Shown here in pieces: positions 6,177 to 18,545 of a DNA stretch of 37,595 nt. Each line of letters begins with the position of its first letter. The stretch's first letter is position 1. Both the position numbers and the translations under genes were made by a program. The notes beneath the pieces were generated by a model. The model did not search any database, was not told where the DNA came from, and was given only the letters and a program-made list of their open reading frames with translations. This stretch comes from an uncultured Bacilli bacterium (lineage in GTDB: Bacteria; Bacillota_I; Bacilli_A; RF39; UBA660). Where the stretch lies: contig CANRKL010000006.1 in the NCBI GenBank assembly GCA_947631205.1, positions 1 to 37,595 on the forward strand. Reading direction: 5' to 3'.

Positions 6177-6205
6177 CTTCTTCACCATTCTATATATATT
6201 TTAGC

Positions 6206-6235
6206 AAAAATTAAAAAGCTATACAATGATAGCTT
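6206..6235 (-). terminator. Terminator of the cohesin-dockerin locus
   Basis: On the minus strand a seven-base-pair perfect stem, AAGCTAT / ATAGCTT with a six-base loop (6216-6235), runs into a T-rich tract. It lies 17 bases after the stop of the membrane cohesin gene and separates that locus from ftsQ-queH. Confidence 0.75.
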
Positions 6236-6251
6236 ATATGATAGACAATAA

Positions 6252-7052
6252 TTAGACAAATTTCTTTTTAGAATTTAATATCAAGAAAGTAATAACTAAA
6301 ATAACTACACTAATTATTACTCCCCATAATATTAGATTGTTATTATTAGTAGTAACAGTATATCTTTCTACATTAACAATTTCATTATTAGAGTTTTTTT
6401 CATATATTTCAACTTCACCATCATGATGAAAAGTAACAACTCCATTATCATCTATTGAGGCAATATAAGGATTACTACTTTCTAAATGATTTTCTGGATT
6501 AATTTTATTTTCTACAACTTCATTAGTTTTAACTTTTTTTTGAATTATTTCTTTTTCTTCTTCATTATCATTTACTAATGCTTGATTAATTATAGACACA
6601 CTTCCAGTTTCTACTTTAGAATCAAATTTTTGTAATGCAAAATTAGCATAATCAGTAACTTTTAATTCTATTTTACTTGTTACAGCATTATCTTTTACTT
6701 TAAATTTTAAATTCATTAAAGTAGTATCATTATCTATATGGACATCTTCTTTCATTGTTAAAGTATAAAAGACAATAACGTGACTATCATTTTCTACTAT
6801 ATCTTTCATTTCAAAATTATCAAAAAGACTTATATCGGCACCCATGTATTCTAAACTATTAAAATCATAAGTAAATCTTAAGCCAAGATAACTAAATCCT
6901 TTATTATTTTTTATATTAACTGGTATTGTTATTTCGTCTCCTATATAAGCATTAGAACTACCTATTTGAAAAATAGATAGTTCTTCAGCTTTAACACAGG
7001 ATATAGTAAATATTAAGAATACGCTTAAAAATATTTTAATTATTTTTTTCAA
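6252..7052 (-). CDS. Membrane-anchored cohesin protein
   Basis: About 266 residues. A signal peptide (KKIIKIFLSVFLIFTISCVKA) precedes one cohesin domain: IGSSNAYIGDEITIPVNIKN, then FSYLGLRFTYDFNSLEYMG, then TTLMNLKFKVKD and ETGSVSII strands, the usual order of cohesin beta strands. A charged linker and a small beta segment follow, then a C-terminal transmembrane helix (ILWGVIISVVILVITFLIL) and a lysine tail. No LPxTG or NPxTG motif precedes the helix, so I infer membrane rather than wall anchoring. The start is probably TTG 7052, which gives a clean signal peptide; a TTG ten codons upstream is also open. The gene overlaps the end of the scaffoldin gene by 17 bases. Likely partners are the dockerin proteins upstream in the locus. 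Confidence 0.8.
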   Translation of the reverse strand: MKKIIKIFLSVFLIFTISCVKAEELSIFQIGSSNAYIGDEITIPVNIKNNKGFSYLGLRFTYDFNSLEYMGADISLFDNFEMKDIVENDSHVIVFYTLTMKEDVHIDNDTTLMNLKFKVKDNAVTSKIELKVTDYANFALQKFDSKVETGSVSIINQALVNDNEEEKEIIQKKVKTNEVVENKINPENHLESSNPYIASIDDNGVVTFHHDGEVEIYEKNSNNEIVNVERYTVTTNNNNLILWGVIISVVILVITFLILNSKKKFV

Positions 7053-10000
7053 GACGGTATCTCTTATAACCAAATATTCCAAATAATCCTAATGAACTAA
7101 GTGAAATAATTAAGTTTTTAATATTTGCTTCCATACCAGTTTGTGGATTAATTGTATCTTCTTTTGTAGTTACGTTTGATACAACTTCATTTACTTCAAT
7201 TTCAATTTCTGATTTTAGTCCATTAGAAGCGGTTACTTTAATTTTAGCACTTCCACTTCCTACGGCTTTAATTTTACCAAATTCATCAACAGTTAGAATG
7301 TTTTCATCACTAGATTCATATGTAAATGTTAATTCATCAGTTGTATTATTTGGTAATATTTCTATATTGATTTTTTCTTCATCACCAATATTTAAATTAT
7401 CTTTTTCAACACTAACAATAATTTTTTCTGATTTAATTTCTTTTATTTCAATATTAATTTCTTTAGTTATATTGCCAACTTTAATAGTAATTGTAGCTTT
7501 ACCAGCTTTTTTAGCTGTTAATATTCCAAGTTCATCAACACTTACTATATCATCATCACTAGAACTATAAACTACATTTTCTAATTCAGTTGAATCAATT
7601 GGGTCTGGTGTAATTAATATTTGACCACTGCTACCTTTTAATAAATCATTAGGATAACTAACACTTATATCATCTAATGGAATAATTTTAACTGTAACGT
7701 TAATTTTGACTTCCATTCCATTGCTTAGACTACCAGTAATTATTGTTGTTCCTTCTTTTAAGCCAGTAATTAATCCATCTTTATCAACTGTAGCAATACT
7801 TTCATCATCACTTTTCCAAGTAATAGTTTTTGATTCAGTTGTATCACTTGGATTAATAGCTGGTGATACTTTTACAGCATTTTTTTTACCTTTTATAATA
7901 GTCATATTTTTATCACGTACTTCAAATGATGTAATTGGAACGATAACTTTTATTTTAATTGTATCTTCATGATTGTTTGCTTTTACTTTAATAGTTACAG
8001 TACCTGCTTTTCTTGCAGTTACAACACCAGTTGGACTAACAGTTGCAATTTCATCATCACTACTAGACCATTCTAATGTATATTTTTCAGTAGTATCAGA
8101 AGGATTAACTGTAGCTGTTAAATTAGTAGTATTATTTTTAACTAATTCTATATAATCTTTTGTTAAACCAGCTTTTTCATTTATCTTAACATCTTTAATT
8201 GGTGCAACAACTTTAATAGTTATAGTATCTTGTTTACCATCTCTTATTGCTGTAATAACTGTTGTACCAATAGCTTTAGCTGTAACAACTCCATTACCAT
8301 CAACTTCAGCTATGCCATCTTCGCTACTTTGCCATACAGTATTATTTTTATCTGTAAAATCATCAGGGTTGATTTTAATTTTTAAGGTTTTTTTTGAACC
8401 TCTTTCTATTTCAATAGTATCTTTTCCATCTTCTATTACTACACTACTAACTGGTACTTTTACTGTAATAGTTGCTTTGACACTTTTGCCATTTTTTAAA
8501 GTACCAGTAACATTAGCTGTACCTCCACCAACAGCATGAACTTTGCCATCTGCTTCGACAGTAACAACTTTTGTATTATCGCTTTCCCAAGTAACAGTTC
8601 TATCTTCTTCAGCATCATCTGGTTCAATTTTAACTGATAATTGTTGTTCTTCACCTTTATTCATTGTAAATTCAGCACTTGGTTGGATAGTTACACTATC
8701 AATAGGTTTTAATACTTTTACAGTAATTTGGTCTTGTTTATCATTATATTTAACAGTAATGGTTACAGTTCCTGGTTTTATTGCATGGATAGTTCCATCT
8801 TGGTCAACGCTTACTGTACCTTCTTCACTACTTTCCCATTTAATTTTATCTTTCTCACTTGTATCAGCAGGATTGATTACTAAATTTAATTTTTTAGATT
8901 GAGTTGGTAATAATTCCATATCACTATCTGTAATATCTAATGAATCAATATCAACGAAAACAGTTACATCAACTTCAAAATGATAAGTACCTAAGTTAGC
9001 AGTAATTTTAGTCTTACCACCACTTACAGCAACAATATGGCCATCATTGACTGTAGCAACACTATCTACTGTACTATTCCAATCTATTTTAGTACTGTCA
9101 GTTGTATCTAATGGATAATATGTTACTTGTAAATCTTTTGTTCCACCACGATTTAAAGTTATTGGACCACTTTCACTAATAGATGCACTAGTTATTGGAA
9201 TATTTACTGTAACATTTACACTTGCACTAATATCTTTTGTGGTCTTAGCTGTTATAGTTGCAACCCCCCCCCCGACAGCACTTATGGTACCTCCAGAGAC
9301 ACTAGCTACATCACCTTTGTTAGATTCCCAACTAATAGTTTGGTCATCACTAATTGGACCATCAGGATTTTCGGCAATAAGCTCAGCAGTAATTAGTTCA
9401 CTTCCTTTAGTTTCGCTACCACCTTGCATTTTTTTAATTTCTAATGTTACATCTTGTTTACTTAATTTTATTTCTTTTATTGGATTACTAACATTAATTG
9501 TAATTTCTTTAGTAAAACCATAAGCATTTACAGTAACTTTGGCTTCACCATTTTTATTTTTATTAGCAGTTACTAATCCTTCACTACTTACATCAATTAT
9601 GTCAGACCCTTGGGTAACATTAAATGATAGATTTTTTTCAGTAGTTGTTGTACCACCATTTTCAGTAACAGCATTTATAGGTATTTGATAATTATTCCCA
9701 TAAATCATATTAACTGTAGCATCTCCAACTGTAATATCGGTTGCTGGATTTTCAATTTTAATTGTTCCTGGAGCTGGAGAGTTATATGGAACATCTTCAT
9801 AATCCTCTAGGTTACCTGTCTCATTTTTAGTATATTTTTCTACTTCAATATCAAAATTATAATCACCAGCTGCTGCATTTAATACTTCTAATTCAACAAC
9901 CATAATTGGTCCATTATAATCGGAAGTTTTAGGACCACTTGATTTGCCAACATAGGCTAGTGCTACTAAAGCTTTGCTACCATCATCACTTTTATCATGA

Positions 10001-10311
10001 ACAGCTGCACCAAATGTCTTTAAAAAGTTCATATCTTCAGGTGCAGTTACATCAATTATTTTAAATGCGTCCTTATTAATATTTACACTTAAATTTAAAC
10101 CATTAAGACCCTTATTACCAGCCATTTTTAAAAATAGATAAATGTGTTCACCTTGTTTGGCTGTAGTTATGTTTTCACCATCAACGTTATTTTCCTTTTT
10201 AACTTCTACGCTAAAAGTTGTATTTTGGTCAGCCATTACAAAATATAATGGAACAGCTAAAACACAAACAATTGATAGTATCCCTAATAATTTTACAAAT
10301 TTTTTTCTCAT
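7036..10311 (-). CDS. Wall-anchored cohesin scaffoldin with ten Big_2 repeats
   Basis: 1091 residues. Signal peptide (1-27); cohesin-like domain about 28-185 (AKQGEHIYLFLKMAGNKGLN, LNLSVNINKDAFKIIDV, GPIMVVELEVLNAAAGDYNF); then about ten Big_2-like Ig repeats of roughly 85 residues, each with a W.S...VA.V...G.V.A...G...I pattern. A sorting signal follows: NPQTG at about 1055-1059, a hydrophobic helix, and KRYRLEKNN. NPQTG is a class B sortase type of motif, and a class B sortase is encoded immediately upstream. I infer a wall-attached stalk presenting an outer cohesin that binds dockerin proteins. A G10 tract lies at codons 347-350 in the second Big repeat. RBS AAAGGTGAT precedes ATG 10311, and a promoter-like pair lies just upstream. 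Confidence 0.85.
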   Translation of the reverse strand: MRKKFVKLLGILSIVCVLAVPLYFVMADQNTTFSVEVKKENNVDGENITTAKQGEHIYLFLKMAGNKGLNGLNLSVNINKDAFKIIDVTAPEDMNFLKTFGAAVHDKSDDGSKALVALAYVGKSSGPKTSDYNGPIMVVELEVLNAAAGDYNFDIEVEKYTKNETGNLEDYEDVPYNSPAPGTIKIENPATDITVGDATVNMIYGNNYQIPINAVTENGGTTTTEKNLSFNVTQGSDIIDVSSEGLVTANKNKNGEAKVTVNAYGFTKEITINVSNPIKEIKLSKQDVTLEIKKMQGGSETKGSELITAELIAENPDGPISDDQTISWESNKGDVASVSGGTISAVGGGVATITAKTTKDISASVNVTVNIPITSASISESGPITLNRGGTKDLQVTYYPLDTTDSTKIDWNSTVDSVATVNDGHIVAVSGGKTKITANLGTYHFEVDVTVFVDIDSLDITDSDMELLPTQSKKLNLVINPADTSEKDKIKWESSEEGTVSVDQDGTIHAIKPGTVTITVKYNDKQDQITVKVLKPIDSVTIQPSAEFTMNKGEEQQLSVKIEPDDAEEDRTVTWESDNTKVVTVEADGKVHAVGGGTANVTGTLKNGKSVKATITVKVPVSSVVIEDGKDTIEIERGSKKTLKIKINPDDFTDKNNTVWQSSEDGIAEVDGNGVVTAKAIGTTVITAIRDGKQDTITIKVVAPIKDVKINEKAGLTKDYIELVKNNTTNLTATVNPSDTTEKYTLEWSSSDDEIATVSPTGVVTARKAGTVTIKVKANNHEDTIKIKVIVPITSFEVRDKNMTIIKGKKNAVKVSPAINPSDTTESKTITWKSDDESIATVDKDGLITGLKEGTTIITGSLSNGMEVKINVTVKIIPLDDISVSYPNDLLKGSSGQILITPDPIDSTELENVVYSSSDDDIVSVDELGILTAKKAGKATITIKVGNITKEINIEIKEIKSEKIIVSVEKDNLNIGDEEKINIEILPNNTTDELTFTYESSDENILTVDEFGKIKAVGSGSAKIKVTASNGLKSEIEIEVNEVVSNVTTKEDTINPQTGMEANIKNLIISLSSLGLFGIFGYKRYRLEKNN
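9264..9273 (-). repeat. G10 homopolymer inside the scaffoldin gene
   Basis: Ten consecutive G on the coding strand encode GGG and the first base of the next valine codon. Other Big repeats encode similar glycine runs with mixed codons. With ten G the frame is open. With nine, the following codons read TTG CAA CTA TAA; with eleven, TGC AAC TAT AAC AGC TAA. Either slip stops translation within seven codons. Such a tract in AT-rich DNA is typical of slipped-strand phase variation. Confidence 0.75.
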
Positions 10312-10334
10312 TTTATATCACCTTTCATAATCAA

Positions 10335-10363
10335 AGTATATCACTATTTTTTTATGACATCAA
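10335..10363 (-). promoter_or_regulatory. Putative sigma-A promoter for the scaffoldin gene
   Basis: On the minus strand, TTGATG at 10358-10363 is separated by 17 bases from TATACT at 10335-10340, upstream of RBS AAAGGTGAT and ATG 10311. This could let the two cohesin genes be transcribed apart from the sortase and dockerin genes. The rest of 10312-10410 is AT-rich with no strong terminator. Confidence 0.55.
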
Positions 10364-10410
10364 GAAAATTTTTTTGCCAAAATTTGTGATTTTTTTACAT
10401 GATTTTTTAT

Positions 10411-11139
10411 TTAAATATCAATTATTTTACTTAATACAGCATGAACTATTATTCTTTTTTTTCCCGTATTATTGCAAGTTGATAAAGTTAAAGTTTTATT
10501 TTTTTGTTTTTCATAATTAGAAAAATTAACTTTATCTTCAAAAAAATTTTGATAAAAATTTAGTGGTACAGCATCATTAGGTGTTGTTATATAAGATGAA
10601 TATACACTATAAATCAATATTTTATTTTCTAAGTAAAGATATATGTCAACTTTATCTATTTTTTTCTCATATATATTTACTAAATCACTAAACATTTCTC
10701 TTGTATTCATATTATGACCATAAATTATTGAATTGTTATCATTAAAATATTCATCATTATTAGCATCAAGATATATAGAACCATTACGGTTATATTCCTT
10801 ATATATATTTCTATTTAAATAATATTCATTATCGTTGCCTTGTAAAATAGGATAATCAATATTAGTATTAGGAATTTTTAACCAACCAACAACATCTTCA
10901 TTAATATCTTTTAATTTATTGATGTCGATTTTCAAAATATTTTCATCAGAAGAAGGTTTTTCTTCGGATATTTTTACTTCAGATTTTAGTAATTCTATTT
11001 GTTTTTGATTAACATCGTCATCTTTTTGATTTTTAAAATATTTGTAACCATATAGTAAAGATATAACTAGAAATATAACCATTAAGACATTAACAATAAT
11101 AACTTGATACTTCTTTTTTAATTTAAAATTTTTTTTCAT
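10411..11139 (-). CDS. srtB: Class B sortase
   Basis: A 242-residue membrane-anchored transpeptidase. An N-terminal transmembrane helix (residues 12-31) follows a lysine-rich head, then the class B pattern VVGWLKIPNTNIDYPILQGN and NEYYLNRN...GSIYLDANND. Catalytic residues are visible: His142 in YGHN, Cys222 in TLSTC, and Arg229 in GKKRIIVHAVL. It should cleave a sorting motif on a surface protein and join it to peptidoglycan; the natural client is the NPQTG protein encoded next. The ATG is four bases after the stop of the dockerin-transglutaminase gene, with AAGTGATG overlapping, so coupling is likely. Confidence 0.92.
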   Translation of the reverse strand: MKKNFKLKKKYQVIIVNVLMVIFLVISLLYGYKYFKNQKDDDVNQKQIELLKSEVKISEEKPSSDENILKIDINKLKDINEDVVGWLKIPNTNIDYPILQGNDNEYYLNRNIYKEYNRNGSIYLDANNDEYFNDNNSIIYGHNMNTREMFSDLVNIYEKKIDKVDIYLYLENKILIYSVYSSYITTPNDAVPLNFYQNFFEDKVNFSNYEKQKNKTLTLSTCNNTGKKRIIVHAVLSKIIDI

Positions 11140-11143
11140 AACA

Positions 11144-11557
11144 TCACTTAATTAATAACTTTAATATTTCAATGGCATCTATTACGGTAATTTCTTTATC
11201 ATTATCAAAATCACCTATTAATAATTTATGGCTAGTTACTTCTCTTTTACCAATAGAATAATATAAAGCTTCTACGGCATCAATTACTGAGATGTCTCCA
11301 CTTTCATCTAGGTCACCTTTTATATATTCATTAATTCCTGTTCCCACTGTTACTAGACATTTGGCACTTTTTCCATTACTAGTTGTTACAGTAATTTCAC
11401 TTGTTCCGTTATTTAATCCTCTAACTCTTCCATTTTCATCTACTTCTGCTACTATTTTATTACTACTTTTCCAAGTTAATTTATTACTATCAGTTGTATC
11501 TATAGGATTTATAGTTGCAACAAGGTTATCATTTCCATTTATTTTTAAAGTTAAGTT
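11144..11557 (-). repeat. Long direct repeat, copy A (Big_2 plus dockerin tail)
   Basis: This 414-bp 3' end of the transglutaminase-dockerin gene is nearly identical to 13985-14398. I count about 14 mismatches by eye, most of them at third codon positions. Its last 180 bp also match 15999-16182 less closely. Confidence 0.85.
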
Positions 11558-13975
11558 ATCTTTACTTAATTTAACGCTATCAATGTGTTTATATTCTCCT
11601 GGAGTAAAATATTTCATATAATTGTTAAATTCGGCGGCATCACTAGTTGTTATATTTCCATCGCCATCAAAATCTGCTATTAATATATCATCAGCACTAG
11701 CTCCATATTTAAAAATATTTAATATCATATTTGTATCATTACTATCAAAAATTCCATCACCATTTATATCTCCATAATATTTTTTACTGCCATCACTTAA
11801 AGTAATAGGTAGACAAACATAAATTAAACATTCAGAACTTCCATATTTATCAGAAGTTGCTTTGATATAGACTAATCCACCTTTTTTAGGTGTTACTACT
11901 CCATCTTTTACTGAAGCAACTTCATCATCACTACTACTCCATTTAACATTATCATATTTTTCTTTTTCTACAGATGCAATTAAAGTCAATTTATCACTTG
12001 ATGAATTTAACTGATATTTTGTATGATTCAAACTTAATTTAATATCCTTAACTGTTATATGACAAGTTGCAATATTTCCTGTAACACTTTTAACTTTAAT
12101 TGTGACATCTCCTTTGCCAACTAATCTAACTTCGCCATCTTTTACAGTTGCAACTAAATCATTAGTACTACTCCAATCTAAATTTTTATCAAAGTAGTAT
12201 TTTGGAGTTACAGTATAATTTAAATTAATAGTATCTCCAACATTTCCACTTAATTCAGTTTCTTCAAAAACCACCTTTTGAGTTAATTCTTCATAAGGAA
12301 TATTATTTTCTTTAGCATAATTTTCAGTTTGACTATTTTTAGGTATATAAATAGTTTGACTAACATCTTTTAAGTCCATTTGTTCAACATTTTCACTAAG
12401 AATAATTATTTCTTCTAAATTTTTACTATTTAAAAAAGCATTTTTAGCAATTTCTTTAACATTTTTACCAACTATTACTGCACTAAGTTGATTATAGTAA
12501 GAAAAGGCACTTTGACCAATATACTCAACATCATCAGGAATTTCTAAAATTCCTTTTAATTCTCTACTCCAAGAAAAAGCACCACGAGAAAGATATTTAA
12601 GATTTTTACTTAATTTTAAAGAACTTATTGAAGTCTCATTAAAACTATTTACTCCTATATAGCTAACGTTATCAGGAATATTTAACTCTCCAGTGATAGG
12701 AACATTTAAAAAGGCTCCAGAACCAATTGATTTTAAAGTTGTTGGAAAACTAATGTTGCCACTTAGCTTTTCGGAATAAGCAAAAGCATCATCACCAATA
12801 TATAATAATTTTTTTGGTAAAATAATATTCCCAGTTAAATTAGTTCTTCGAAAAGCATAGTTACCAATTCCAACTACTGGCTTATTATTTATTGTATCAG
12901 GAATTACAAGATTGCCACTTATATCTCCATTATTTTTACTAACAGCTTTTACAATAACGACATTATTTGGTGATTCAATATAAGTTAAATTATAATTTTC
13001 ACCGCTTACATCATATGTTTTAATTTCTGACCAAGTAGTTAATTTCTTATAACTCGTTTCACTGGTTAATTTAGAACTACTATCATACACACTATAATAA
13101 ATATATCCATCTCTTATAAATACATTAATAATTCCTGATGTACCACTTAAACTTTTTAACTTAGTTATTTTATTATTTGTTATATCTATACTATTTAAAG
13201 ATTTATCAGTTCCAACATAATAAAGTAAATTATTTTCTTTAACTAATCCTGTATCATTAACGTCGTATAAAACATCAGTTAGTTTTTCTTTTGACCCACT
13301 AAGAATATTTTCTTTATATAAAGCGTTAGTCCAACCAGAACTACTACTTTGTCCCATTAAATAATATTTGTATCCAGAAACGTAAAAAGTCTGTGAATAT
13401 GAACTAATAGAAACATTACTTGTAACTCCCTCAGGTAAGTTAGTTGGAGTTGTTAAAAAATTATTGGATTTAAAATAAGCATCATTAAAATTTACCATAC
13501 TACTAACAGTGGAATTTTTAATATCAGTTTTACTTTTAAAACGAGTGGCAAAATTAAGTCTTGCAGGTTCTTTTCCAGATTTAGTTGAATCAAAATATGT
13601 CCACTCATCATCTAAATTACAAATATTCCAAGCATGATTTCCTAAATTACTAGCTAAATATTCACAAGAAATGCCAGCAGAACTATTTAAAAATTGATAT
13701 GCTTGATTAAATCCTGCACAAACTGAAGCATGTTCGACAAAAACAGAATCATAATCTTGTTGATTATTTCCAGTTGAACTACTTTTGTATCCATTTCCTT
13801 CTTGAACATATATCCCAAAAAACATGGCTTTTTCATGTTCACTCATTTGGTCATTAATTTGCTCTAGGGCATACAATCTATTTTGTTCAATTATAGCATC
13901 TTCATCAACTTCAGCTGCTTTTATAGGATTTATAATGCTTAATACTAACAATATACTAAATATTATCTTTTTCAT
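11144..13975 (-). CDS. Secreted dockerin protein with transglutaminase-like and LRR domains
   Basis: 943 residues. Signal peptide 1-20. The transglutaminase-like (papain-fold) domain about 25-150 keeps a Cys-His-Asp triad: Cys86 in ASVCAGFNQAY, His114 in NHAWN, Asp129 in YFDST. A spacer follows, then BspA-type leucine-rich repeats about 360-560 (IGNYAF, IGDDAFAYS, IGSGAFLN, IGQSAFSYY). Next come two Big_2-like domains, an internal dockerin about 731-795 (GDINGDGIFDSND and DFDGDGNITTSD loops), a third Big_2 domain and a C-terminal dockerin about 884-943 (DLDESGDISVID and DFDNDKEITVID). Both dockerins keep the calcium-ligand positions. It probably docks on the locus's cohesins. RBS AGGAGG lies just upstream. 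Confidence 0.85.
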   Translation of the reverse strand: MKKIIFSILLVLSIINPIKAAEVDEDAIIEQNRLYALEQINDQMSEHEKAMFFGIYVQEGNGYKSSSTGNNQQDYDSVFVEHASVCAGFNQAYQFLNSSAGISCEYLASNLGNHAWNICNLDDEWTYFDSTKSGKEPARLNFATRFKSKTDIKNSTVSSMVNFNDAYFKSNNFLTTPTNLPEGVTSNVSISSYSQTFYVSGYKYYLMGQSSSSGWTNALYKENILSGSKEKLTDVLYDVNDTGLVKENNLLYYVGTDKSLNSIDITNNKITKLKSLSGTSGIINVFIRDGYIYYSVYDSSSKLTSETSYKKLTTWSEIKTYDVSGENYNLTYIESPNNVVIVKAVSKNNGDISGNLVIPDTINNKPVVGIGNYAFRRTNLTGNIILPKKLLYIGDDAFAYSEKLSGNISFPTTLKSIGSGAFLNVPITGELNIPDNVSYIGVNSFNETSISSLKLSKNLKYLSRGAFSWSRELKGILEIPDDVEYIGQSAFSYYNQLSAVIVGKNVKEIAKNAFLNSKNLEEIIILSENVEQMDLKDVSQTIYIPKNSQTENYAKENNIPYEELTQKVVFEETELSGNVGDTINLNYTVTPKYYFDKNLDWSSTNDLVATVKDGEVRLVGKGDVTIKVKSVTGNIATCHITVKDIKLSLNHTKYQLNSSSDKLTLIASVEKEKYDNVKWSSSDDEVASVKDGVVTPKKGGLVYIKATSDKYGSSECLIYVCLPITLSDGSKKYYGDINGDGIFDSNDTNMILNIFKYGASADDILIADFDGDGNITTSDAAEFNNYMKYFTPGEYKHIDSVKLSKDNLTLKINGNDNLVATINPIDTTDSNKLTWKSSNKIVAEVDENGRVRGLNNGTSEITVTTSNGKSAKCLVTVGTGINEYIKGDLDESGDISVIDAVEALYYSIGKREVTSHKLLIGDFDNDKEITVIDAIEILKLLIK

Positions 13976-13984
13976 TTAACCCTC

Positions 13985-14398
13985 CTATTTAATTAATAAT
14001 TTTAATATTTCAATGGCATCTATTACTGTAATTTCTTTATCATTGTCAAAATCACCAATTAATAATTTATGGTTGGTTACATCTCTTTTACCAATAGAAT
14101 AATATAAAGCTTCTACGGCATCAATTACTGAGATGTCTCCACTTTCATCTAGGTCACCTTTTATATATTCGTTAATTCCTGTTCCAACTGTTACTAGGCA
14201 TTTGGCACTTTTTCCATTACTAGTTGTTACAGTAATTTCACTTGTTCCATTATTTAATCCTCTAACTCTTCCATTTTCATCTACTTCTGCCACTAGTTTA
14301 TTACTACTTTTCCAAGTTAATTTATCACTATCAGTTGTATCTATAGGATTTATAGTTGCAACAAGGTTATCATTTCCATTTATTTTTAAAGTTAAGTT
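13985..14398 (-). repeat. Long direct repeat, copy B (Big_2 plus dockerin tail)
   Basis: Partner of 11144-11557, about 96-97% identical over 414 bp by my count. The enzyme domains upstream of the two copies are unrelated, so the repeat is a shared interchangeable tail. The short leader ATTAAATAGGAGGG after the stop codon is also shared with copy C. Confidence 0.85.
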
Positions 14399-15988
14399 TT
14401 TTCTATCTAATGTTACATCAATAATTTCTTTATATCCATTAGTTGAAAAAAAATTTAAAGTATAAATGTCGATAATAGATGTATTATCTTCTAAATCAAT
14501 ATAACCATTATTATTGATGTCTCCTAAAATATTAATATCTTCATTATATTTTGCATCAAGTAAATAATCACTTATTAAAGATGAATCAATAGCGTTTATA
14601 TGACCATCTCTATTTAAATCACCAATATATCCTTTAGAACCATCACTTAAAGACACAGGAACACTTACATAAATTAAACATTCAGAACTACCATATTTAG
14701 CACTTTTAGCAGTAACACGAGCAAATCCTCCCCTAAGTGGTGTTACTTTTCCATTAACAACACTTACAATATTTGAATCTTTAGTACTCCATGTAACATC
14801 ATTCGCGGCATTACCATTACTTAATTTAGCTTCTAATTGTAAAGTTTCTCCTAAACTATTAATTTGATAATTTGAATAATTTAATTTTAATGAAATATTT
14901 TCTTCAACTTTAACTGTAAATGATGTAGCAATTTTTTTATTTATAGCCATTCCACTAACAGTGATTTTAGCTTGTCCTGTATTTTTACCAACTAAAAAGC
15001 CATCTGTAACATCAACAATATTAGGAGAATCACTGCTGTAATTAAGCTCATAAATAGTTGCATTACTAGGAACAATATTAGGAACAATTTTCTTAGATTC
15101 ATTAACTTTTATTGTATAATTATCAACTTTAAATGTATCTAATAAATAGCCAACATCAACATCATAATTTTTAGATTTTCCAAGCATAGTTCCTGTAAAA
15201 GAAGTTCTTCCCTCTTTAAGACCTGTTAAAACTCCATCTTTCAAGGTTAAATAATTAGTATCATAATTTTGGTATTTTAAAACTGATGATGGAATTTTTA
15301 CACTATAATTTTCATTATTCATATAAGCTATATATCTAATATTAAGAGGATTTCCAACCTCAACATAATAATGACCTGTTAAATCATTATATGAAGTAAT
15401 TTTTAAACTATAATCATTGATATAAGTATCAATAATTTCAACATCTTGAACAACCGTGTCGCTTTTTCCACTTTTATTGGAGATATTTGCCGTGTCATAC
15501 CTCGAAAACATCTGAACAGCTAAATAAGTTCCTGCTCCACCATTTTCAATTTTAGCAACACCTATTCCAATTGATTTCCAATCACTTCCTAAAATATTTT
15601 TTTTATGACCAGCAGATTTCATCCAAACTTCATTGACACAATAAGTACCATTCGACACATTGGCAGCAATATTTTCAGCAGAAGCGCTCATAGTATTACT
15701 ATCTACCATTGTATAAAATGATTTGCCATTTGGTCTTGTATGGTCGAAATAAAGGGCAATTTCATAAGCTCTTTTCATAGCTGCTTCTTGCAATTCAGCA
15801 TCCATTTTAAGAACATTTAAATTGGCACTTTTTCTGGCTTCATTAGTTGCTGCTAACGCATCGTTTGCCCAATCATAATCTCTAATCCCAGTTACTGGTA
15901 AACTATAGCTAGCTGCATGAACTAAAGATGCCCCAGTAAATAAGAAAATGAAACTGAAAAATAAATTTACTAACAATTTTTTTGACAT
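13985..15988 (-). CDS. Secreted dockerin protein with a CAP (SCP/PR-1) domain
   Basis: 667 residues. Signal peptide 1-25. CAP domain about 40-165 with the family's conserved cavity residues: His83 in FDHTRP, Glu105 in SAENIA, His128 in GHKKNIL, and the closing strand YLAVQMFSR. Bacterial CAP proteins of the YkwD type are secreted; their activity is not generally settled. Ig-like segments follow (including Big_2 with TWSTKDSNIVSVVNG), then an internal dockerin about 449-510 (DLNRDGHINAID, DINNNGYIDLED), a Big_2 domain and a C-terminal dockerin 608-667 nearly identical to those of its neighbours. RBS AGGAGGG precedes the start, and the gene lies between two other dockerin genes. Confidence 0.85.
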   Translation of the reverse strand: MSKKLLVNLFFSFIFLFTGASLVHAASYSLPVTGIRDYDWANDALAATNEARKSANLNVLKMDAELQEAAMKRAYEIALYFDHTRPNGKSFYTMVDSNTMSASAENIAANVSNGTYCVNEVWMKSAGHKKNILGSDWKSIGIGVAKIENGGAGTYLAVQMFSRYDTANISNKSGKSDTVVQDVEIIDTYINDYSLKITSYNDLTGHYYVEVGNPLNIRYIAYMNNENYSVKIPSSVLKYQNYDTNYLTLKDGVLTGLKEGRTSFTGTMLGKSKNYDVDVGYLLDTFKVDNYTIKVNESKKIVPNIVPSNATIYELNYSSDSPNIVDVTDGFLVGKNTGQAKITVSGMAINKKIATSFTVKVEENISLKLNYSNYQINSLGETLQLEAKLSNGNAANDVTWSTKDSNIVSVVNGKVTPLRGGFARVTAKSAKYGSSECLIYVSVPVSLSDGSKGYIGDLNRDGHINAIDSSLISDYLLDAKYNEDINILGDINNNGYIDLEDNTSIIDIYTLNFFSTNGYKEIIDVTLDRKNLTLKINGNDNLVATINPIDTTDSDKLTWKSSNKLVAEVDENGRVRGLNNGTSEITVTTSNGKSAKCLVTVGTGINEYIKGDLDESGDISVIDAVEALYYSIGKRDVTNHKLLIGDFDNDKEITVIDAIEILKLLIK

Positions 15989-15998
15989 ATATTCCCTC

Positions 15999-16182
15999 CT
16001 ATTTAATCAATAATTTTAATATTTCAATGGCATCAATTACCGTAATTTCTTCATCATTATCAAAATCACCAATTAATAACTTATGACTAGTTACTTCTCT
16101 TTTACCAATAGAATAATATAAGGCCTCTACGGCGTCAATTACAGAGATGTCACCACTTTCATCTAAGTCGCCTTTTATGTAA
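15999..16182 (-). repeat. Direct repeat, copy C (dockerin tail only)
   Basis: The 3' 184 bp encode the same dockerin as copies A and B, with more substitutions (roughly 90% identical by eye). The Big_2 part upstream is not shared at the DNA level. Confidence 0.75.
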
Positions 16183-18380
16183 TCTAAAACATTGATGGTA
16201 GTGGTCGCACTTACTCCTTTATAACTGGCTGTTATAACGGATTTTCCAACTTCTTTAGCTGTTATTTTTCCAGAATCATCAATACCAACGATATTATTAT
16301 AAGATGATTTCCAAGTTGGAGTGATTTCTAAATTAGGAGTAACAGTAAGCAATAAATTCATAGTTGAACCTTTAGGTAAAGAAATATTTTGAGGCAAGGA
16401 TAATTTTAAAGTATATGGTGAGACAATTTGATATTCTTTTGTAATTTCACCTGTATAATCACCAGAACCTTTAATAACTAGCTTAGCTGTTCCTGGACGA
16501 TAGGTATTAGAATAACTAACTCTATAATCTTTATTTTTTTCTAGTATTTTACCATCTAATTTAACAACAATTTCAGGTTCAATATTATTGTCATAGCTTT
16601 CCCATTCATAATATTCTTTTAAGTTTTCAATTACTGCTCTTGTAATATCTATTTTAGTAATTTTAAATTCTTCCATTTTAATACCAACATACTTATCAAT
16701 TCCTATAATCCAAGCTTGAGCATAATCAGTAACCATATTATTTTTAACATAACTAACTTTATAATCAACATTTTCTTCTAAAATTTTTCCATTATCTTTA
16801 ATTACTATTTCAGGAATATTTACATCGCCACTAATCTCCATATCGGAAACACTAATATCTAAATCCGTTATCTCTTTAAATTCTGTTTGGCCTTCTTCTA
16901 TAACTCCAAATGCACAATTGTTTTCTTGAGCATAATTTATAGCTGTAGAATTTTTATAACCATATATTGGAAAATATTTACTACATAAGCCTTTTCCTAA
17001 GGTAGTATTTTCATTTAAAATTACTAAATAATTTACATAGTCACCATTATTATAAGTTCTAAGATTATTATCTGGGTCAAAGGCTTCTTTACTAAAGACG
17101 TTATTACCAATTTTAGTAACACTTTTAGGAATAATAACTCCCTTAGTTAATTTATCTAAATCATAAAAAGCATTGTCATCAATAACTTGTAAATCTTCAT
17201 TCAATTCTAGTGAGCTAATATTATTATTGTAAGAAACAGCATATTCTTTAATTTCTTTGACACCATCTTTAATTTTTAGAACACCGCCTTCTTTTCCAGA
17301 TGGATATTGATATAAAATGTCACCAGTTTTAGAATACAAAATCCCATCTTCACTCATATAATTAGGATTTGACGCATCAACATTAATTTCTTTTAAGGTA
17401 GGAATATTCATAAATGCTCCAGTTCTAATTTCTGTTAAGGTCGTTGGAACTTTAACATTTTTAACAACTGTATATTTATTTTTGCCATAAAGAAAAGCAT
17501 ATTCCCCTAATACTTGATAATTATTAGGTATTTCAACGACTTCATCATAGCCATCATATTGAATATATATATATTGACCACCATTAATTCCTGTAGAAAA
17601 ACCACTATAAGTATTTTCTATTTTATAATATCTTGGAGGAGATTCATTATATGTGGCATCAATTACATAAATCTTACCATCTAATAAGGCAGCAACATTG
17701 TGATGATTATTTCCAGCTCCGGCATCTCTTATTGCATTTCGCAAATGAGCTTTTATCCCAGCATAATTAGCCATATATATTACAGCTTCACTTATTCCAA
17801 TACAATCAGCTCCATCGCCATAAATAAAATCAATATAATTAGAAGCCTTGGCACTGTAAGGATAATATCTAATAAAATCTTTGACAATAGTTTCCATTTT
17901 TTCATAATCATTCATGTTACTTCGAATATTTTCATCAACAAAATCTTTCATCTTTTTTTCAGCACTATAAACAGCATAATCAACAACATTTACATTTACT
18001 TCAAAAGTTTCACTTCCAACAACTACCGATATTTTAGAAGTTCCTACCTCAACTTTTTGATAAGTTCTATCATAACTTGAAGAATTAGAAGTACTACATA
18101 CATTTTCCTTACAATAATATGTGGTTACTTTTGGCGTAACAAGTCCATTCTCACTAACAAGAACACTATTTCCAGAAATAACTTTATATTTAGGATTTTC
18201 TGTAGAATCTAACACAGTAATTTGAAACTCTTTTTTTAATTCACTAGGAATTGATAGTTTATTATTATATGTTTCTCCTAAAGCATATATTGTAGCACTA
18301 TCTTCTTTAATACTAGCAGCATGAACATTAAAAGCTAAAAATAAACTAAATAATAAAAACAAGCAATAATTCTTTTTCAT
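15999..18380 (-). CDS. Secreted dockerin protein with transglutaminase-like and LRR domains
   Basis: 793 residues from ATG 18380, which has AAAGGA nine bases upstream; an ATG six codons earlier lacks a ribosome site. Signal peptide (KKNYCLFLLFSLFLAFNVHA). An Ig-like N-terminal domain precedes a transglutaminase-like domain with Cys193 in GADCIGISEAV, His226/227 in NHHNVAALL and Asp241 in YVIDATYN. BspA-type leucine-rich repeats follow (LGEYAFLYG, IRTGAFMN, IDDNAFYD, IGNNVFS), then two Ig-like repeats of the VDYKVSY/KDYRVSY type, one Big_2 domain and a C-terminal dockerin about 734-793. It has no internal dockerin, unlike its two neighbours. First gene of the locus, directly behind a consensus promoter. 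Confidence 0.85.
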   Translation of the reverse strand: MKKNYCLFLLFSLFLAFNVHAASIKEDSATIYALGETYNNKLSIPSELKKEFQITVLDSTENPKYKVISGNSVLVSENGLVTPKVTTYYCKENVCSTSNSSSYDRTYQKVEVGTSKISVVVGSETFEVNVNVVDYAVYSAEKKMKDFVDENIRSNMNDYEKMETIVKDFIRYYPYSAKASNYIDFIYGDGADCIGISEAVIYMANYAGIKAHLRNAIRDAGAGNNHHNVAALLDGKIYVIDATYNESPPRYYKIENTYSGFSTGINGGQYIYIQYDGYDEVVEIPNNYQVLGEYAFLYGKNKYTVVKNVKVPTTLTEIRTGAFMNIPTLKEINVDASNPNYMSEDGILYSKTGDILYQYPSGKEGGVLKIKDGVKEIKEYAVSYNNNISSLELNEDLQVIDDNAFYDLDKLTKGVIIPKSVTKIGNNVFSKEAFDPDNNLRTYNNGDYVNYLVILNENTTLGKGLCSKYFPIYGYKNSTAINYAQENNCAFGVIEEGQTEFKEITDLDISVSDMEISGDVNIPEIVIKDNGKILEENVDYKVSYVKNNMVTDYAQAWIIGIDKYVGIKMEEFKITKIDITRAVIENLKEYYEWESYDNNIEPEIVVKLDGKILEKNKDYRVSYSNTYRPGTAKLVIKGSGDYTGEITKEYQIVSPYTLKLSLPQNISLPKGSTMNLLLTVTPNLEITPTWKSSYNNIVGIDDSGKITAKEVGKSVITASYKGVSATTTINVLDYIKGDLDESGDISVIDAVEALYYSIGKREVTSHKLLIGDFDNDEEITVIDAIEILKLLIK

Positions 18381-18516
18381 TTTCCAAATTCCTTTCATTT
18401 TATGTATTTTATATCAAGCTCTTATTTCAAAAAAAATTATACAAAATATTTTTTTTCATTTCAATATCTATTATATTCTTTTTGAAAATATAAGCAATTA
18501 CATAAGTCATAAATAA

Positions 18517-18545
18517 ATTATATTACACATACATATGTTTGTCAA
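18517..18545 (-). promoter_or_regulatory. Perfect-consensus sigma-A promoter of the cohesin-dockerin locus
   Basis: On the minus strand TTGACA at 18540-18545 and TATAAT at 18517-18522 are exactly 17 bases apart. A leader of roughly 130 bases leads to ATG 18380. The pair sits just downstream of the terminator of the preceding unit and is the strongest promoter visible in the window. Confidence 0.85.

Follow-up and report, generated by a model that had tools for sequence, protein, structure and literature searches.

A cohesin-dockerin gene cassette with a linked class B sortase in an uncultured gut Bacilli bacterium: a putative non-cellulosomal surface-display system

Contig CANRKL010000006.1 of an uncultured Bacilli bacterium (assembly GCA_947631205.1) carries a compact cohesin-dockerin locus that includes a class B sortase gene. 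In this study, we analyzed the whole stretch of 37,595 nucleotides (nt), referred to here as the window. Six consecutive genes were found on the minus strand between positions 18398 and 6252, all where the original prediction had placed them, and were designated D1, D2, D3, SrtB, Coh1, and Coh2. The gaps along D1 to Coh2 are 10, 9, 4, 99, and -17 nt, and a hydrophobic signal-like segment opens all five non-sortase proteins. The features of the locus are as follows.

18517..18545, minus strand: promoter TTGACA-17-TATAAT 5' of D1, sigma-A-type, 12/12 match
15999..18398, minus strand: D1, with signal peptide, transglutaminase-like domain, BspA-type leucine-rich repeats (LRR), Big_2-like domain, and C-terminal dockerin
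16002..16193, minus strand: C-terminal dockerin of D1, two F-hand repeats, by profile and fold
13985..15988, minus strand: D2, with signal peptide, CAP domain, Big_2 repeats, internal dockerin, and C-terminal dockerin
15509..15856, minus strand: CAP domain of D2 (PF00188, 54.4 bits)
14486..14623, minus strand: internal dockerin of D2 (PF00404, 24.9 bits)
13988..14173, minus strand: C-terminal dockerin of D2
11144..13975, minus strand: D3, with signal peptide, transglutaminase-like domain, BspA-type LRR, Big_2 repeats, and internal and C-terminal dockerins
11615..11776, minus strand: internal dockerin of D3 (PF00404, 29.4 bits)
11147..11332, minus strand: C-terminal dockerin of D3
10411..11139, minus strand: SrtB, class B sortase with His142/Cys222/Arg229 and one N-terminal membrane helix
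7036..10311, minus strand: Coh1, candidate wall anchor, with signal peptide, N-terminal cohesin, eight Big_2 repeats, NPQTG, hydrophobic segment, and basic tail
9751..10221, minus strand: cohesin domain of Coh1, by AlphaFold model, fold search, and family profile
7135..7149, minus strand: NPQTG sorting motif of Coh1
6252..7052, minus strand: Coh2, candidate membrane anchor, TTG start, with signal peptide, cohesin, short stalk, C-terminal membrane helix, and basic tail
6636..6968, minus strand: cohesin domain of Coh2 (PF00963, 44.6 bits)
6205..6235, minus strand: candidate terminator, weak hairpin and T run (-5.5 kcal/mol, z -1.9)

The locus had been described as lying between a perfect sigma-A promoter and a terminator. 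The promoter at 18545-18517 is indeed perfect, and only 0.045 sites with a 12/12 match are expected by chance in 13 kb. A hairpin and a T run do exist at the other end, but they are weaker than had been stated. The hairpin at 6235-6216 has 7 bp with 2 G-C pairs and was not picked up by a stricter terminator scan. A candidate second promoter, TTGATG-17-TATACT, lies in the 99-nt gap 5' of Coh1. The anchor genes could thus be transcribed separately from the dockerin and sortase genes.

Cohesins were assigned by profile and jelly-roll fold, Coh2 by Pfam and Coh1 by family profile and fold. The cohesin of Coh2 scores 42.5 bits with PF00963 (cut-off 24.1), and no sorting motif was found at the C-terminus of Coh2 in the window's copy. 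PF00963 gave no match to the first 190 residues of Coh1 alone. A profile of the Coh1 N-terminus built from nine genomes matched the solved cohesin 4ums (E 2e-7), and the top 38 PDB matches to the AlphaFold model of this region (predicted local distance difference test, pLDDT, 78) were all cohesins. Coh1 homologues elsewhere are recognized by PF00963, for example with 57.6 bits in L112, a metagenome-assembled genome (MAG) labelled as Clostridia. Coh1 also combines the C-terminal motif, membrane segment, and basic tail of a sortase substrate. It scored 13.2 against the LPXTG domain model, under the cut-off of 15.9, and the C-terminal motif [NSI]P[QKH]T[GS] is present in 12 of 13 Coh1 homologues, the exception being G085. 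These results are consistent with the earlier claims of an NPQTG-anchored and a membrane-tethered cohesin protein. Structure prediction had been named as a way to find that the N-terminal domains are not cohesins, and the Coh1 model gave no such outcome.

The C-terminal dockerins of D1, D2, and D3 show two calcium-loop F-hand repeats and the dockerin fold, and the internal dockerins exceed the PF00404 cut-off. Pfam Dockerin_1 gave 26.0 bits for D3 and 23.1 bits for D2 (cut-off 22.9). The C-terminal dockerin of D1 reached 13.7 bits in Pfam; solved dockerins were matched by its family profile, and dockerins were the first fold-search matches (Foldseek) to its AlphaFold model (pLDDT 91.6). The original prediction of three secreted dockerin proteins was thus confirmed with a correction, since D2 and D3 hold a second, internal dockerin. 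With two dockerins each, D2 and D3 could bridge two cohesins. Also above the Pfam cut-offs were LRR_5 in D1 and D3 and Big_2 in Coh1, D2, and D3. The candidate residues of the transglutaminase-like domains are Cys199, His232/233, and Asp247 in D1 and Cys86, His114, and Asp129 in D3, and homologues of these domains in L112 and L137 exceed the Pfam cut-off. The true start of D1 may be the second ATG at 18380.

SrtB scores 68.1 bits with Pfam Sortase. When its profile was compared with solved structures, SrtB structures were the best matches (E 4e-51), and NCBIfam TIGR03064 was matched with E 8e-40. As had been claimed, His142, Cys222, and Arg229 are all present, and the His and Cys are invariant in eight aligned cassette sortases. 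Cohesin, dockerin, CAP, and sortase profiles, which had been proposed for checking the locus, all matched there.

A profile search of 386 genomes from the window's family found full-length Coh2 in 10, which belong to 7 genera, and no match had an E-value between 1e-74 and 1e-17. Cohesins as such are frequent in this family (100/193 genomes). Eight of the 10 family loci combine SrtB, Coh1, and Coh2 with one or more dockerin genes. The contig stops inside Coh1 at the G334 locus. At the G085 locus, a dockerin gene truncated at the end of the contig is accompanied by Coh1 and Coh2, with no sortase between the dockerin gene and Coh1; this Coh1 lacks the sorting motif, and the locus has no linked sortase in the available sequence. 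Three genomes of a second family, to which L112 belongs, also have the whole set (G386, G531, and G430). The G531 copy lies within a 418-kb contig, which argues against binning error. Named matches were MAGs labelled as Bacilli, with isolate names starting 'Lapin' (taken as rabbit), and the Clostridia-labelled L112. No full-length match was found beyond the window's family in a 392-genome sample of its phylum. The contig scan for Coh2 used a four-sequence alignment, and short partial matches (L113-L117) were set aside.

A synteny search had been suggested for the locus, and the set does recur in relatives, in other orders and neighborhoods. Gene order varies between genomes, and BLASTP gave no match to the window genes flanking the cassette in the stretches around other copies. 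In addition, 3 of 5 genomes of the window's own genus are without the cassette. These results suggest that the cassette moves or is repeatedly lost. Cargo with transglutaminase-like and LRR domains occurs in both families, and CAP cargo occurs across genera of the window's family. The remaining cassette cargo has Big_2 only, or no known domain.

Ten of the 11 cassette sortases, three of them from the second family, fall in one clade (95/93), which excludes 22 other SrtB-like genes, most from the same genomes. C-terminal dockerins share 74% identity within a genome and 34% between genomes, and the cargo about 25%. None of 5000 permutations gave a within-genome dockerin identity as high. Such likeness despite differing cargo is predicted by docking on one shared receptor. 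The recurrence of the cassette, the sortase clade, and the homogenized dockerins together support the reading as a complex beyond a single locus.

The best fit to these sequence data is a non-cellulosomal, sortase-anchored cohesin-dockerin surface complex. We consider it probable (roughly 0.78) that the locus is a compact surface-display cassette, in which cargo docks on sortase- and membrane-held cohesins. SrtB would link the long stalk protein Coh1 to peptidoglycan via NPQTG, and Coh2 would keep a second cohesin near the membrane. The secreted transglutaminase-like/LRR and CAP proteins would then dock on Coh1 and Coh2 via their nearly identical C-terminal dockerins, and calcium would be needed for docking, as expected by analogy with known dockerins. 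The outcome would be an interchangeable, non-covalently loaded protein layer. This layer would most likely bind or process proteins or peptidoglycan on host, food, or neighbor-cell surfaces, and not plant polysaccharide. A wider reading is more tentative, and we lean slightly against it: the cassette may be a horizontally moving 'plug-in' platform with a dedicated SrtB, two single-cohesin anchors, a homogenized dockerin, genome-specific protein-targeting cargo, and no carbohydrate role, common to small-genome gut Bacilli and the Clostridia-labelled family and holding host- or peptidoglycan-directed enzymes.

A genome-wide dockerin search found only three further places, and none of these dockerin genes carries a plant-polysaccharide enzyme domain by Pfam, in a genome that is 88% complete. 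On contig C7 (L011:8742-15851), a 2369-amino-acid M26 (IgA1-protease family) metallopeptidase has an N-terminal cohesin, membrane helices, and a dockerin. It is matched by 5/5 similar cohesin proteins of 2.5-3.1 kaa (thousand amino acids; L180, L181, L182, L183, L184) from other genomes of the window's family, with an HExxH motif. On contig C24 (L012:5788-9159), a protein with a C-terminal dockerin and an SH3-like domain adjoins a 516-amino-acid membrane protein; the latter has a cadherin-like domain and is related to cohesin proteins of other genomes, and the two genes are also adjacent in L040 and L042. The third place (L013:1729-4299) is a weak dockerin match in an 856-amino-acid protein that consists mostly of calcium-loop-like repeats (NVDTDGDGKPD...), preceded by one membrane helix. 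Six sortase-family matches were found in the genome, which ruled out the cassette SrtB as its only sortase. The description of the locus as self-contained was therefore not supported, as the genome also has the M26 cohesin-dockerin protein, the C24 pair, and five more sortase-family genes. These extra genes make cross-talk possible, and the system may not be closed.

Cellulosomes are marked by a scaffoldin with several cohesins and by dockerin-bearing plant-polysaccharide enzymes or carbohydrate-binding modules (CBM). The cassette has one cohesin per protein, and no glycoside hydrolase (GH), other carbohydrate-active enzyme (CAZyme), or CBM was found in its cargo by Pfam. A cellulosome reading was thus rejected, in agreement with the original prediction. 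The same Pfam search found no dockerin-bearing mucin-degrading CAZymes of the mucinolysome type in the cassette cargo. The locus matches the pattern of non-cellulosomal systems, in which cohesin and dockerin genes lie side by side outside any cellulosome. We regard it as quite unlikely that the locus is a reduced cellulosome-type system, or the remnant of one, whose carbohydrate enzymes are encoded elsewhere in the genome and dock on Coh1 and Coh2. This reading would be in keeping with cohesin/dockerin ancestry and with the further dockerin genes of the genome, and the Ruminococcus flavefaciens cellulosome does include transglutaminase-like and LRR dockerin proteins. However, the cassette proteins bear single cohesins and no array, no GH or CBM was detected in their cargo by Pfam, and the three other dockerin places lack plant-polysaccharide enzyme domains, with the caveat that a gene may be missing from the incomplete genome.

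The presence of other cohesins and dockerins in the same genome, together with the many single cohesin-dockerin gene pairs of the second family, would also suit a mixed set of surface genes. In that case, Coh1 and Coh2 would bind other dockerins (the C7 M26 protein, the C24 SH3 protein, or those of other cells), and D1-D3 would dock elsewhere. We regard this as unlikely, as the gene set is kept across genera and two families despite altered order and neighborhood, and the cargo dockerins are homogenized within each genome. It is highly unlikely that the proteins are adhesins or envelope-remodelling enzymes whose cohesin- and dockerin-like domains are unpaired, ordinary beta-sandwich and calcium-binding modules. 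Cohesin-like folds do occur in other adhesive proteins, and the first loops are degenerate in some dockerins (G158), but both F-hand repeats are retained in almost all dockerins, and cohesins and dockerins co-occur in the cassette.

Several points weigh against the surface-display reading itself. The transglutaminase-like domains of D1 (14.9 bits) and D3 are under the Pfam cut-off. SrtB, at 136.7 bits, is under the curated TIGR03064 cut-off of 153.75, which points to a divergent SrtB. The Arg column is Lys in 2 of the 8 cassette sortases (G312, G374), the G360 cassette sortase lies outside the clade, and the five further sortase-family genes of the genome could anchor Coh1. The within-genome similarity of dockerins could be due partly to gene duplication or gene conversion. 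D2 and D3 share 95.7% identity over their final 416 nt, and gene conversion alone would also give such homogenization. The Clostridia label of the second family comes from a single record. The AlphaFold models are of single chains only, and our statements on which modules bind each other, whether calcium is required, which substrate SrtB uses, whether the proteins reside at the surface, and what they do there are inferences.

Most of what is known about cohesin-dockerin pairs comes from cellulosomes. Modules of both types outside cellulosomes, a class to which the cassette would belong, are reportedly the subject of a 2009 survey by Peer et al. (cited in PMC2930009). Such pairing outside the cellulosome is also seen in structure 2ozn, which we take to be the NagJ/NagH cohesin-dockerin pair of Clostridium perfringens; there, unlike in the cassette, glycoside hydrolases pair with one another and no sortase is linked. 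To our knowledge, the substrates of the Clostridioides difficile class B sortase do not lie in a cohesin-dockerin operon. The signal proposed for that sortase, SPxTG/PPxTG (PMC4371152), is close to the SPxTG/NPxTG of Coh1. A near likeness is found in R. flavefaciens FD-1, where the group 4b operon ORF01263-01267 encodes, head to tail, secreted transglutaminase-like/LRR proteins with conserved C-terminal dockerins, and where ScaE, an anchor with one cohesin, is attached through a sortase signal (PMC2930009). In contrast to the cassette, these parts serve a large plant-fiber cellulosome with many scaffoldins, GH, and CBM, and the portion of that article drawn on here reports no class B sortase in the operon (PMC2930009). 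The cassette differs in that anchors, sortase, and cargo form one compact, CAZyme-free unit, carried by a gut bacterium with a small genome, and in having CAP cargo and an anchor with a Big_2 stalk. The mucin-directed gut mucinolysome of Limousia, described in 2026, is likewise not directed at plant fiber and has an LPxTG cohesin anchor, cSca5, whereas its multi-cohesin scaffoldins and mucin-degrading CAZymes have no counterpart in the cassette (PMC12997984). Both cohesin and dockerin modules are present in 4333 human-gut MAGs (PMC12997984). A 2024 genome survey of cellulosome-displaying bacteria noted sortase anchoring in Ruminococcus (PMC11557425).

The original prediction had known of no described system of this kind. 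Our literature search, which did not extend to subscription papers including the 2009 survey, found no cassette in which a class B sortase is linked to two anchors of one cohesin each and to cargo without CAZymes, so the claim stands for the combination. It does not stand for most of the ingredients, which are known from R. flavefaciens (PMC2930009). With ScaE, the R. flavefaciens operon, and the mucinolysome as precedents, the CAZyme-free, SrtB-linked combination appears to be a new variation. If the surface-display reading is true, the plug-and-socket parts of cellulosomes would also serve uncultured gut bacteria for surface display in general, in a small CAZyme-free cassette with a sortase of its own and exchange of cargo. 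The cassettes would supply natural cognate sets of cohesin, dockerin, and SrtB for specificity tests and surface-display engineering. They also suggest a mechanism, open to experiment, by which gut bacteria with small genomes could keep proteins at the interface with the host.

Simpler or different arrangements were also observed in relatives. In the family of L112 (L141, L145, L147, L151, L153, L155), single LPxTG or membrane cohesins adjoin very large dockerin proteins, and no sortase is directly linked. The dockerin proteins that were scanned have NPCBM, F5/8-type C, or transglutaminase-like domains. These loci were counted as a simpler related arrangement and not as the cassette. A different cluster in G178 (L046:1997-14719) was left out of the cassette count. 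It encodes a papain-like protease with List-Bact repeats and a dockerin, a two-dockerin Big_2 protein, and two proteins with cohesin and cadherin-like domains, one of which has NPQTG.

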